Origin: an uncultured Caryophanales bacterium
Lineage (GTDB): Bacteria; Bacillota_I; Bacilli_A; RFN20; CAG-826
Direction: 5' to 3'
Assembly (NCBI GenBank): GCA_946411895.1
Contig: CAMKFP010000005.1
Location: 1 to 33,937, forward strand
Length of the DNA: 33,937 nucleotides
A model generated the notes under the pieces. It was not told the DNA's origin. It made no database searches and worked only from the letters and a program-made list of their open reading frames with translations. The stretch's first letter is position 1, and each line of letters begins with the position of its first letter. The translations under genes were made by a program, and so were the position numbers. This document shows, piece after piece, positions 24,013 through 32,417 of this stretch.

Positions 24013-24062
24013 AAATCTAAAAATGTATTATAATAGATATAATCTAGTTGGGGTTAACACAT

Positions 24063-24482
24063 ATGAAAGAAACCAGTTTATCTGTTTATAAGAAATATTT
24101 ATCCGCGTTAAATAAGAGCAAACATAAATATGTCACCGCGGAGAAGCTTTCTCGTGAAGTTGGATTATATCCAGAGATTATCGCTAGTGACCTTTCAGTC
24201 TTAGAGCCCACTTTAATGATGGATCCAAGTTACAACCTGAAAGATTTGATTCCTGCTTTAGAGGAATACATCGTTAAAAAAGAAGAAAAGAAAGCTCCTG
24301 TTGTCAAATCAGAAGCAGTAAGAAAAACTGAGCTCGCTAAATACGATTCCGTGAGTGACTTCGTCTATCAAAAGATGACATTTGGCGGTATCGTGGATAA
24401 GACTTGTTATCTTTCAGATAAAGACTTACGAGCGCTCAAGAAATTAGTGAGTGAAGAACTCGCCAGAAGAAAGAAAAAATAA
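24063..24482 (+). CDS. Small winged-helix-like protein resembling the Rex N-terminal DNA-binding domain
   Basis: LSVYKKYLSALNKSKHKYVTAEKLSREVGLYPEIIASDLSVLE follows the pattern of Rex N-termini (L..Y..YL..L....V....L...V......I..D.S). No Rossmann domain. Start at ATG 24063. Confidence 0.5.
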   Translation: MKETSLSVYKKYLSALNKSKHKYVTAEKLSREVGLYPEIIASDLSVLEPTLMMDPSYNLKDLIPALEEYIVKKEEKKAPVVKSEAVRKTELAKYDSVSDFVYQKMTFGGIVDKTCYLSDKDLRALKKLVSEELARRKKK

Positions 24483-24483
24483 G

Positions 24484-24512
24484 AGGACTCCCAAGCGGAG
24501 TTCTTTTTATTT
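24484..24512 (+). terminator. Rho-independent terminator
   Basis: AGGACTCC-CAAGC-GGAGTTCT followed by TTTTATTT. Confidence 0.75.
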
Positions 24513-24559
24513 CAAATGATAAAAAGATTATGAGCATCGCTAAAAAGAATAAAAAATGA

Positions 24560-24599
24560 TGATTTATATCTTGTTATAAATCACACGCGAGAATAAAAT
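24560..24599 (+). promoter_or_regulatory. nifJ promoter with operator-like inverted repeat
   Basis: TGATTTATA-TCTTGT-TATAAATCA (24560-24583) overlaps -35 TTGTTA (24571-24576); 17-nt spacer to TAAAAT (24594-24599). Confidence 0.6.
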
Positions 24600-24626: not shown

Positions 24627-27600
24627 ATGGCCGATGTAAAGAAAACAATGCTCTCAGTCGATGGTAATACTGCGGCAGCACTTGGTTCTTACAATTACAT
24701 TGAAGTAGCGGGTATTTACCCCATTACTCCATCTTCTCCAATGGCGGAGAACATTGATGTTTATGCATCACAAAAAAGAAAGAATTTCTTTGGCTCTGTT
24801 GTCAAAGTGAGCGAAATGCAATCCGAAGCTGGTGCTTCTGGTGCAGTTCACGGCTTCTTACAAGCTGGCGCTTTAGCGGCCACCTACACAGCTAGCCAAG
24901 GTTTATTACTCATGATCCCAAATATTTATAAGTGGGTCGGCGAACTTCTCCCAGCGGTTCTTCACGTTTCCGCTAGAAGTTTAGCGACACGTAGCTTATC
25001 CATCTTTGGTGATCATCAAGATATCTACGCGATTAGACAAACTGGTATCGCCATGATTTGTGCGCACAGTGTCCAAGAAATCGCAGATTTAACTAACGTT
25101 GCCCACTTAGTGGCAATCGACGCTCAATATCCAGTGTGTCACTTCTTCGATGGCTTTAGAACTTCTCATGAAATTCAAAACGTCGAATTCGTCGATGATG
25201 CCGAATGGAAGAAACTCCTTCCAATGGATAAAGTTGAGCTCTTTAGAAGCCGCGCTTTGAACCCACACACTCACCCAGTGACCCGTGGTGGAGCGGAAAA
25301 CGATGACATCTACTTCCAAGGTAGAGAAGCGCAAAACGAAAAACTCGACGAAGTCGTGGAAGTCGCTTGCAAGTACTTCAAAGAAGCTTCTAGACTTACT
25401 GGTAGAAATTATGCTCCATTCACCTATTATGGTGCTAAAGATGCGACCAGAGTGATTATCGCTATGGGTTCTGTCACTGAAACAATTACTGAAGTAATTG
25501 ATGACTTAACCGCAAAAGGCGAAAAGATTGGTTTAGTAAAAGTTCACTTATACCGTCCATTCTCCGCGAAGCACTTACTTGAAGTTCTTCCAAAGAGTGT
25601 CAAACAAATCGCTGTCTTAGATAGAACTAAAGAACCAGGCGCAGCTGGTGAACCATTATATGAAGATGTTGCCGCTGTCATTAAAGAAGCTGGTTTAGAT
25701 ATCGAAGTCTTAGGTGGTAGATATGGTTTATCCTCTAAGGATACCCAACCAAAAGACATGAAAGCTGTTTATGATTTCTTAGCGTCCTCTAAGAGATGGA
25801 ATGGCTTCACCGTTGGTATTGAAGACGATGTCACACATCTCTCCATCCCACGCGATGATGAATATCACGTTAAAGGCGACTACACATCCTGCTTATTCTA
25901 TGGTTTAGGTAGTGATGGCACAGTCTCTGCGAATAAATCCTCCATTAAGATCATTGGTGATGCGACTGGTCAATACGCCCAAGCCTACTTCGCCTATGAC
26001 TCTAGAAAAGCCGGTGGTGTGACTCGTTCTCACTTGAGATTTGGTAAATCCCCAATTCACTCCACATATTATGTCCAAAACGCGGACTTTGTCTCTTGTT
26101 CACTTGATACATATCTCTTCAAGTTTGATATGATCCGTAACCTCAAGAAAGGTGGAACATTCTTACTTAACACTGATATGGATGATGAAACACTCATCAA
26201 GATGATGCCTAACCGCGTCAAATATCAACTCGCCACCAAAAGTGCGAAGTTCTATGTCATCGACGCTAACAAGATTGCTGGTGAAATCGGTATGGGTAGA
26301 CATACTAATACCATTCTCCAAGCTAGCTTCTTCTATCTTAATCCAGACATTATGCCATATGCGGAAGCCAATAAATGGATGAAGAAGTTCGCCGAAAAGA
26401 GCTACGCCAAGAAAGGTCAAGATGTCGTTGAGATGAACTTCAAGGCGATTGACGCTGGTACTGAAGGTTTAAGAGAAGTGAAAGTTGATCCAGAATGGGC
26501 CAAACTCTCTCCAAAAGCCGAAGTCAAATTAACTGGTGATGATTATTTCGACTCCTACGTTGCTGTTATGGGTAACTTAGGTGGAGATGATCTCCCTGTG
26601 AGCAAATTCAAAGAATTTGAATTACTCGATGGCACCATGCAAAACGATATCACCTTCAAAGAGAAGAGAAGTATCGCTGATAGAGTGCCTCTCTGGCATA
26701 AAGAAGCCTGTATTCAATGTAATAACTGTGCCTTCGTCTGTCCACACGCGACAATTAGACCATTCTTAATCGACGAAAAAGAACTCGAAGCCGCTCCTGA
26801 AATCGTGAAAAACGATGTCAAAGATGCGCTTGGTGTTCCAGGCATGAAATATCGCATCCAAGTCTCTCCACGTAACTGCGTTGGCTGCGGACTCTGCGTT
26901 GTTGAATGTATGGCTAATAAGACTGGTAAAGTCGCCCTTGAAATGGTGGAAGCCAAGTCTCAATTCCCACAAGAAGAAGGTGCTGAATATCTCTTCAAGC
27001 ACGTTACTTATAAGGCTGATAAGCTTCCAGCCGCCTTACAATCCTCTGTTAAAGGTGTTGGATTCTTAATGCCATATATGGAAATCTCTGGTGCCTGTGC
27101 GGGCTGTGGAGAAACTCCATATTATCGTTTAGTCTCTCAATTATTCGGTAAAGATATGTTAGTGGCTAACGCCACTGGATGTAGCTCCATCTATAGTGGT
27201 TCTACTCCACTTACTCCATTCTGTACCGATAAAGACGGTCAAGGTATTGCCTGGGCTAACTCCTTATTCGAAGATAACGCTGAATATGGATACGGCATGA
27301 GAGTGGCGACAAACGCGAAGATTAAACGCATTATTGAAATCTTAAGCGAAGCGAAAGCCCGTGGCTTAGAGCCAGAGCTCGACGCGAAGATTGATGAATA
27401 CTTTGCCAAGATCAAAGATAGAGTAGCGATGAGAACCATTGTTCCAGAACTCGTCAAACTCATTAAAGCCTCCAAAGATGAAGGCGTTAAAGAAGTTCTC
27501 GCTTATGAAAGAGACCTCGCTGATAAGTCCATTTGGATTATCGGTGGTGATGGTTGGGCATATGATATCGGCTATGGCGGTTTAGATCACGTCATCGCTA

Positions 27601-28172
27601 ATGAAGAAGATGTAAACATCTTAGTCTTAGATACCGAAGTCTATTCCAATACTGGTGGTCAATCCTCTAAGAGCTCTCAAACTGGCTCTATTGCGAAGTT
27701 CACTGCCTCTGGAAAGACCACTGCGAAGAAGAACCTCGCTTTAATCGCCATGAGCTATGGCAATGTCTATGTTGCGCAAATCGCTTTAGGTGCTAATCCA
27801 CTCGCGGCTATTAAGGCCCTTAAGGAAGCTGAAAGCTATGATGGACCAAGCTTAGTCATCTGCTATGCTCCATGTGCTAATCACGGTATTAAAGGTGGTC
27901 TCTCTAACTCCATGAGACAAGAAAGACTCGCTGTTGAATGCGGTTACTTCCCAATCTTCCGTTATGATCCACGTAACCTTGAAGCTGGTAAGCCTGCTCT
28001 CACTCTTGATATGAAAGAGCCAGACTTCTCCAAGTTCAGAGACTTCGTCATGACAGAAACCAGATTCTCTCAACTCCCACGCGTCAACCCAGAAAACGCT
28101 GAAGAATTACTCACCAAGTCTGAAAAATACGCGCAAGCGAGATTAGAAAGAATCAAAAAATTCGGTTTATAA
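24627..28172 (+). CDS. nifJ: Pyruvate:ferredoxin (flavodoxin) oxidoreductase
   Basis: 1181 aa, GIYPITPSSPMAE, two 4Fe-4S motifs (CIQCNNCAFVCPH; CVGCGLCVVECM), TPP region GGDGWAYDIGYGGLDHV. Confidence 0.97.
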   Translation: MADVKKTMLSVDGNTAAALGSYNYIEVAGIYPITPSSPMAENIDVYASQKRKNFFGSVVKVSEMQSEAGASGAVHGFLQAGALAATYTASQGLLLMIPNIYKWVGELLPAVLHVSARSLATRSLSIFGDHQDIYAIRQTGIAMICAHSVQEIADLTNVAHLVAIDAQYPVCHFFDGFRTSHEIQNVEFVDDAEWKKLLPMDKVELFRSRALNPHTHPVTRGGAENDDIYFQGREAQNEKLDEVVEVACKYFKEASRLTGRNYAPFTYYGAKDATRVIIAMGSVTETITEVIDDLTAKGEKIGLVKVHLYRPFSAKHLLEVLPKSVKQIAVLDRTKEPGAAGEPLYEDVAAVIKEAGLDIEVLGGRYGLSSKDTQPKDMKAVYDFLASSKRWNGFTVGIEDDVTHLSIPRDDEYHVKGDYTSCLFYGLGSDGTVSANKSSIKIIGDATGQYAQAYFAYDSRKAGGVTRSHLRFGKSPIHSTYYVQNADFVSCSLDTYLFKFDMIRNLKKGGTFLLNTDMDDETLIKMMPNRVKYQLATKSAKFYVIDANKIAGEIGMGRHTNTILQASFFYLNPDIMPYAEANKWMKKFAEKSYAKKGQDVVEMNFKAIDAGTEGLREVKVDPEWAKLSPKAEVKLTGDDYFDSYVAVMGNLGGDDLPVSKFKEFELLDGTMQNDITFKEKRSIADRVPLWHKEACIQCNNCAFVCPHATIRPFLIDEKELEAAPEIVKNDVKDALGVPGMKYRIQVSPRNCVGCGLCVVECMANKTGKVALEMVEAKSQFPQEEGAEYLFKHVTYKADKLPAALQSSVKGVGFLMPYMEISGACAGCGETPYYRLVSQLFGKDMLVANATGCSSIYSGSTPLTPFCTDKDGQGIAWANSLFEDNAEYGYGMRVATNAKIKRIIEILSEAKARGLEPELDAKIDEYFAKIKDRVAMRTIVPELVKLIKASKDEGVKEVLAYERDLADKSIWIIGGDGWAYDIGYGGLDHVIANEEDVNILVLDTEVYSNTGGQSSKSSQTGSIAKFTASGKTTAKKNLALIAMSYGNVYVAQIALGANPLAAIKALKEAESYDGPSLVICYAPCANHGIKGGLSNSMRQERLAVECGYFPIFRYDPRNLEAGKPALTLDMKEPDFSKFRDFVMTETRFSQLPRVNPENAEELLTKSEKYAQARLERIKKFGL

Positions 28173-30881: not shown

Positions 30882-30941
30882 TTAGCTAAGTAGAGTAAAA
30901 GTTTTTTCCTAAAAGTGTAAAAAAATACTTGAATTTTGCTC

Positions 30942-30970
30942 TTGATAAAAATATCATTTTTCTATATCAT
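30942..30970 (+). promoter_or_regulatory. Sigma-A-like promoter
   Basis: TTGATA (30942-30947), 17 nt, TATCAT (30965-30970), upstream of the ATG at 30992. Confidence 0.6.
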
Positions 30971-30991
30971 TATATCGGTAGGTTAAGCAAT

Positions 30992-31348
30992 ATGAAAAAA
31001 GAACAAAGACAAATTGACTCACTATATGAATTATTAAAAGAACAAGTGGAGATTGAAAACAACATCGCCGCTTTACCACGTGGATATATTTCTGTGAAGA
31101 AAATCTCTGGTCACGTTTATAACTATCGTCAATGGAGAGAAGGAAGCAAAATCATTTCTGAGTATGTTCCTGAAGCTTTCCTTAATGGTGTAAAACGTAA
31201 AATCGCTGCTAGAAAAGAACAAGAAGCTCTTCTTAAAGCTGTTAAGAAAGACATCAAGTCCGTTTCTGGTAAATTATTACGCGCTGGCTTAATCGACGAG
31301 AAAGAAATCGCTGAACTCAAAGCTAAAGCGCAAGCAGAAGTTCGTTAA
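30992..31348 (+). CDS. Small conserved-looking protein of unknown function
   Basis: MKKEQRQIDSLYELL... with GYISVKKISGHVYNYRQWREGSKIISEYV. Highly charged helical C-terminus. Start chosen at 30992 after the promoter. Confidence 0.65.
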   Translation: MKKEQRQIDSLYELLKEQVEIENNIAALPRGYISVKKISGHVYNYRQWREGSKIISEYVPEAFLNGVKRKIAARKEQEALLKAVKKDIKSVSGKLLRAGLIDEKEIAELKAKAQAEVR

Positions 31349-31922: not shown

Positions 31923-32417
31923 ATGGCAAAACTCGTTGTACTTTCTGGTGTTCCTGGTAGTGGAAAAAGCTATTTCTCTAGAAAACTTAGATCCACGAAA
32001 GGCTCTCACGTCTATATCATATCTAGCGATGCGCTTAGAGATGCGATTATGGGTAACCAACAAGATCTCTCTAACGACACTTTGATGTGGAAGATGTATT
32101 ACGAGCTCGCTAAAGTCTATAGCGCCGATCCTGATGGATTAGTGGTGCTTGATGCCACCCATACTTCAGCGAAGTATCGTATTGAATCCACTAAACCAAT
32201 TAGAGAGTATTTTGATTCAGCCACTCTCGTGCTTTTTAATCGCCCATATGAAGTGATTAAAAAACAGAATTTAGAAAGAGATTGGTCAGTTCCTCAAGAC
32301 GTTTTGGATAAGTTATATGAAAACTTTGAGATGGTTACGGAGAAAGATAAGGAATTCTTTGACCGTATCTATGTCGTAGAAAACGAGGAAGTTGGAGCGA
32401 TTATTAACGCTCTATAG
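31923..32417 (+). CDS. P-loop kinase (AAA_33 / polynucleotide-kinase-like)
   Basis: Walker A GVPGSGKS; ISSDALRDAIMG and VVLDATHTSAKYR motifs. Confidence 0.8.
   Translation: MAKLVVLSGVPGSGKSYFSRKLRSTKGSHVYIISSDALRDAIMGNQQDLSNDTLMWKMYYELAKVYSADPDGLVVLDATHTSAKYRIESTKPIREYFDSATLVLFNRPYEVIKKQNLERDWSVPQDVLDKLYENFEMVTEKDKEFFDRIYVVENEEVGAIINAL

Follow-up and report, generated by a model that had tools for sequence, protein, structure and literature searches.

Next to nifJ, a central fermentation gene, the window analyzed here (33,937 nt of DNA from an uncultured Caryophanales bacterium) carries a small gene whose product resembles the DNA-binding portion of Rex, a redox repressor, raising the question of whether it encodes a local switch on nifJ, of the kind known from Rex regulons (redox control of fermentation genes), or something else. 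The small gene (24063..24482, + strand) runs from an ATG at 24063 to a stop at 24482 and encodes 139 aa; an alternative TTG start at 24048 would lengthen the protein to 144 aa. It is followed by nifJ (24627..28172, + strand), which encodes a pyruvate:ferredoxin (flavodoxin) oxidoreductase of 1181 aa (TIGR02176, 1562 bits vs. a cut-off of 911). The initial annotation had proposed a redox switch acting on an inverted repeat at the nifJ promoter. The Rex-type ancestry, the missing Rossmann domain, and the nifJ neighborhood in that reading all stand; the redox switch on the repeat does not, and the original picture of the small protein as a simple promoter switch is probably wrong.

Judged by sequence profiles and predicted fold, the small protein is a descendant of the DNA-binding half of Rex. 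It matches Pfam PF06971 with E=6.8e-5 (23.3 bits, below the 27-bit curated cut-off), and NCBIfam Rex models match residues 6–87 with E-values down to 2.1e-7, likewise below curated cut-offs. A PDB search with the lone window protein sequence gave noise only; the family profile retrieved Thermoanaerobacter Rex (3wg9; E=4.3e-5, residues 8–70), and hhalign aligned the family with full-length Rex of the same order over 80 columns (E=2.4e-6, probability 89%). When an AlphaFold2 model was submitted to Foldseek, the top 27 matches were all Rex chains, mostly with a probability of 0.95–1.00 and with weak E-values (0.14 and above). Profile comparison and fold thus bear out the earlier claim that residues ~1–80 resemble the Rex N-terminal winged helix. 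What is shared with that domain (PF06971; PDB 3wg9, 5zz5, 7wb3, and 3ikt) is the helix-turn-helix core of ~70–80 residues. Unlike Rex, and as had been claimed, the 139-aa protein has no Rossmann NAD(H)-binding dimerization domain; it comprises a wingless Rex-type helix-turn-helix (~1–75), a linker, and a family-specific C-terminal domain of ~50 aa (~88–139) that is new relative to Rex.

The residues by which Rex reads DNA have been replaced. In the Thermotoga maritima Rex–DNA complex, R48 and K49 are the main residues reading the major groove, and R60 and G61 contact the minor groove (PMC8836258); by HMMER alignment, these correspond to residues 41, 42, 53, and 54 of the window protein. In a survey of 89 family members and 30 full-length Rex proteins of the same order, the R48 and K49 positions were both basic in 0 of 89 family members vs. 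30 of 30 full-length Rex. Across the family, the R48 position is now N/A, the G58 position I/L/V, and the R60 position M/L; the K49 position is acidic (E/D) in 76 of the 89 members, and the wing G61 position is Asp (D54) in 87. Helix plus wing has a mean charge of −4.0 in the family vs. +2.9 in the 30 full-length Rex proteins, and no strand is predicted in the small protein at the position of the Gly-rich Rex wing. From these replacements and the predicted structure, we infer that this domain has lost Rex-type DNA reading. Conservation extends to the replaced face (Y36, F47, P49, and D54), as expected of a new interface. However, winged-helix proteins can bind DNA by other faces, so the small protein could bind through another one, and its helix 1 is basic. 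Conserved Cys or His ligands, such as a thiol, Fe–S, or metal redox sensor might use, were not found in the family (the best Cys/His column reaches about 22–23% of members), leaving no visible redox sensor.

Within the GTDB family of Bacilli to which the window belongs, a protein search identified the two-domain protein in 116 of 146 genomes, spread over 30 of 35 genera; when 296 genomes of the class were searched with a profile, the other families yielded none. Its C-terminal domain has the motif YxSVxDFxYxKMTxGGLxD...LSDxDLxxLKKLIxEE and was not found in other proteins or elsewhere in the class. Three further families of the class gave weak matches that might have indicated a wider family for this domain; by inspection, these were ribosomal protein L10 (twice), the product of a gene immediately preceding that of an ATP synthase subunit, and a YebC-like protein, and they were judged to be chance. 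The small protein is built from a known domain, newly varied, and the two-domain family is apparently undescribed so far: no stand-alone Rex N-domain protein was found in the literature searched, which covered papers not behind a subscription. Many relatives encode both the small protein and full-length Rex, and others have the small protein without full-length Rex. Because at least 18 genomes that are >90% complete have the small protein and no detectable Rex N-domain, a role as a partner of full-length Rex was ruled out; many genomes carry one without the other. A full-length Rex elsewhere in the window's own genome, which the initial annotation had suggested seeking, is absent, as is galU, both provisionally because that genome is 79.5% complete.

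Our preferred explanation, held tentatively, is that the small protein is a repurposed Rex winged helix with a new C-terminal domain, which quite possibly acts through protein contacts. A small basic protein would have arisen from the DNA-binding half of Rex by loss of the NAD(H) domain and gain of the helical C-terminal domain; the winged-helix core would have been kept as the DNA-reading surface turned acidic and hydrophobic and the wing disappeared. It might work as an adaptor or modulator, for which a partner linked to pyruvate:ferredoxin oxidoreductase, or RNA polymerase, are guesses; the lysine-rich helix 1, the K18–K22 loop, and the C-terminal tail may give extra non-specific nucleic-acid affinity. 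Ancestry, residue loss, gene order, and distribution are established by the data; that the small protein binds other proteins, or influences NifJ at all, is what we infer. The more specific proposal, that one family of small-genome Bacilli exapted the Rex DNA-binding domain as a non-DNA-binding module dedicated to pyruvate:ferredoxin oxidoreductase, whose activity or transcription complex it would control, is rather improbable. If true, the preferred explanation would provide a clear case, conserved across ~30 genera of uncultured small-genome Bacilli, of a redox repressor's DNA-binding half becoming a separate protein with its fold kept and its DNA-reading surface lost.

An alternative that we regard as unlikely is that the small protein is a local transcription regulator of nifJ with altered DNA specificity, binding a palindrome at the nifJ promoter. 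The winged-helix ancestry would suit such a role, as would gene position: of 110 genomes with both genes, 97 have them on one contig, and in every one of these the small gene lies upstream of nifJ in the same orientation, within 3 kb in 93, a neighborhood far more conserved than a single genome could show. This gene order also counts in favor of the protein-contact explanation. The two genes also appear to be transcribed separately. Directly after the small gene is a terminator-like hairpin, ggactcc-caagc-ggagttc plus a T-run (24483..24512, + strand; a second scanner calls the stem on the − strand only), which makes nifJ a probable transcription unit of its own. Among relatives with the two genes close together, 35 of 53 have a similar hairpin between them vs. 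15 of 465 random windows, and so the genes would be mostly separate transcripts in relatives. The nifJ promoter (24571..24599, + strand) is as annotated, TTGTTA (24571–24576)-N17-TAAAAT (24594–24599), and the gap between the genes is 144 nt rather than the 145 nt given; many relatives have a similar TTG...TATAAT arrangement at a comparable distance from nifJ. Against this alternative is the loss of recognition-helix and wing chemistry, as well as the behavior of the repeats.

A perfect inverted repeat with 9-bp arms, TGATTTATA-N6-TATAAATCA (24560..24583), does cover the nifJ −35, as had been reported. The window contains seven such repeats, two of them within the 144 nt separating the genes, where shuffles give P ~0.03 for one repeat (arm ≥9, loop ≤12); its chance occurrence is mildly improbable and no more than that. 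The other perfect 9-bp-arm repeat of this intergenic region is TCTTTTTAT-N8-ATAAAAAGA (24502–24527). Of 97 nifJ upstream regions examined, none besides its own contained the window repeat, contrary to the conservation that the initial annotation had expected of an operator. A genome scan for further copies fared no better: the other near matches in the window's own genome all have 3 mismatches, and the three inspected lie inside ORFs. For the Rex operator (TTGTGAA-N4-TTCACAA type), the window contains two 3-mismatch matches, neither near nifJ, where 4.2 are expected by chance; unlike in Rex regulons, there is no Rex consensus site above chance. A Rex-type operator switch on the window repeat was ruled out by the lost contact residues and the absence of the repeat in relatives, and the wider claim of a local redox switch is unsupported, given the same two points and the lack of conserved Cys/His. 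A helix-turn-helix match plus one palindrome calls for caution against reading regulation.

Other palindromes do recur at nifJ in relatives, and they speak for a dedicated regulator. TAAGTAT-N3/4-ATACTTA lies near or overlapping the nifJ −10 in genera g6 (genomes G005, G035, G057, and G075), g8 (G037 and G059), g14 (G041), and g27 (G085, G026, and G049); it is at nifJ in all 10 genomes that have it, with 3 other sites in all, and is a likely operator, predicted from its placement, for a nifJ-dedicated regulator. Example loci are L138, L077, and L031. Different palindromes occur near the nifJ −10 in g22 (ATACACGCGTGTAT) and g24 (ATAGTAACTAGTTACTAT), and such variation by lineage is what an evolving regulator would give. 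However, the four g6 genomes lack the small gene; an alanine-racemase-like gene lies upstream of nifJ there, on the other strand, and a candidate diverged small gene (E=0.12) proved to be a match to the preceding small ORF. Dyad strength at nifJ (p≤0.05) likewise does not differ with an adjacent small gene (19 of 74) or without one (5 of 18). No operator tied to the presence of the small gene was found at nifJ. The near restriction of TAAGTAT-N3/4-ATACTTA to nifJ, in genomes lacking the small gene too, makes a dedicated nifJ regulator probable, with this evidence not pointing to the small protein; the nifJ-only palindromes make that regulator searchable. Separately, ACGCGTGTATATT lies in the −35/−10 spacer of nifJ in g22 (L016, L018, L028, and L029) and g11 (L039) and is nearly absent elsewhere in those genomes; a single exact copy is present in the window's own genome, near the 16S rRNA gene on contig C61.

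No more probable than a local regulator is a general nucleic-acid- or RNA-polymerase-associated small protein that is unrelated to nifJ, the neighborhood being merely conserved. The family's mean pI of 9.3 and its Lys/Arg-rich helix 1, loop, and tail are consistent with this, as is genus g34, in which all five genomes keep the small protein without detectable nifJ. The conserved neighborhood is broad (galU, nifJ, a 119-aa ORF, a P-loop kinase, and uvrA), and because the block downstream of nifJ is itself widely conserved, the linkage of the small gene to nifJ is weaker functional evidence than it looks. Genus g34 and the conserved neighborhood also count against the protein-contact explanation, together with the 22 genomes that have nifJ without the small gene and genus g9, where the two genes are on different contigs. 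Conversely, the small gene–nifJ link outlasts the downstream block in the deep branches g24, g26, and g12, and the presence of the two genes is correlated across the 146 genomes (110 with both, 6 with the small gene only, 22 with nifJ only, 8 with neither; Fisher p=0.0017, uncorrected for phylogeny). The basic 119-aa ORF and the P-loop AAA_33 kinase gene, at 30929–31348 and 31923–32417 of the window, keep company with nifJ and uvrA in many genera; g7 instead has the kinase gene directly upstream of the small gene, which would also suit a general role.

Least probable, and very doubtful, is an accessory role in a galU operon (UDP-glucose supply) with nifJ as a bystander: a GalU-like gene (NCBIfam galU, E=1e-79, below cut-off) does lie between the small gene and nifJ in eight genera (g4, g8, g12, g14, g23, g27, g31, and g33), in an arrangement that could be ancestral because its occurrences are dispersed across the NifJ tree and extend to the deep branch g12, but no GalU was detected in 113 of 146 genomes (the incomplete genome of the window included) while the small protein persists. 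In these eight genera, the GalU-like gene mostly overlaps the stop of the small gene by 4 nt or starts within 20 nt; examples of this coupling include L007:5584-6857, L100, and L085.
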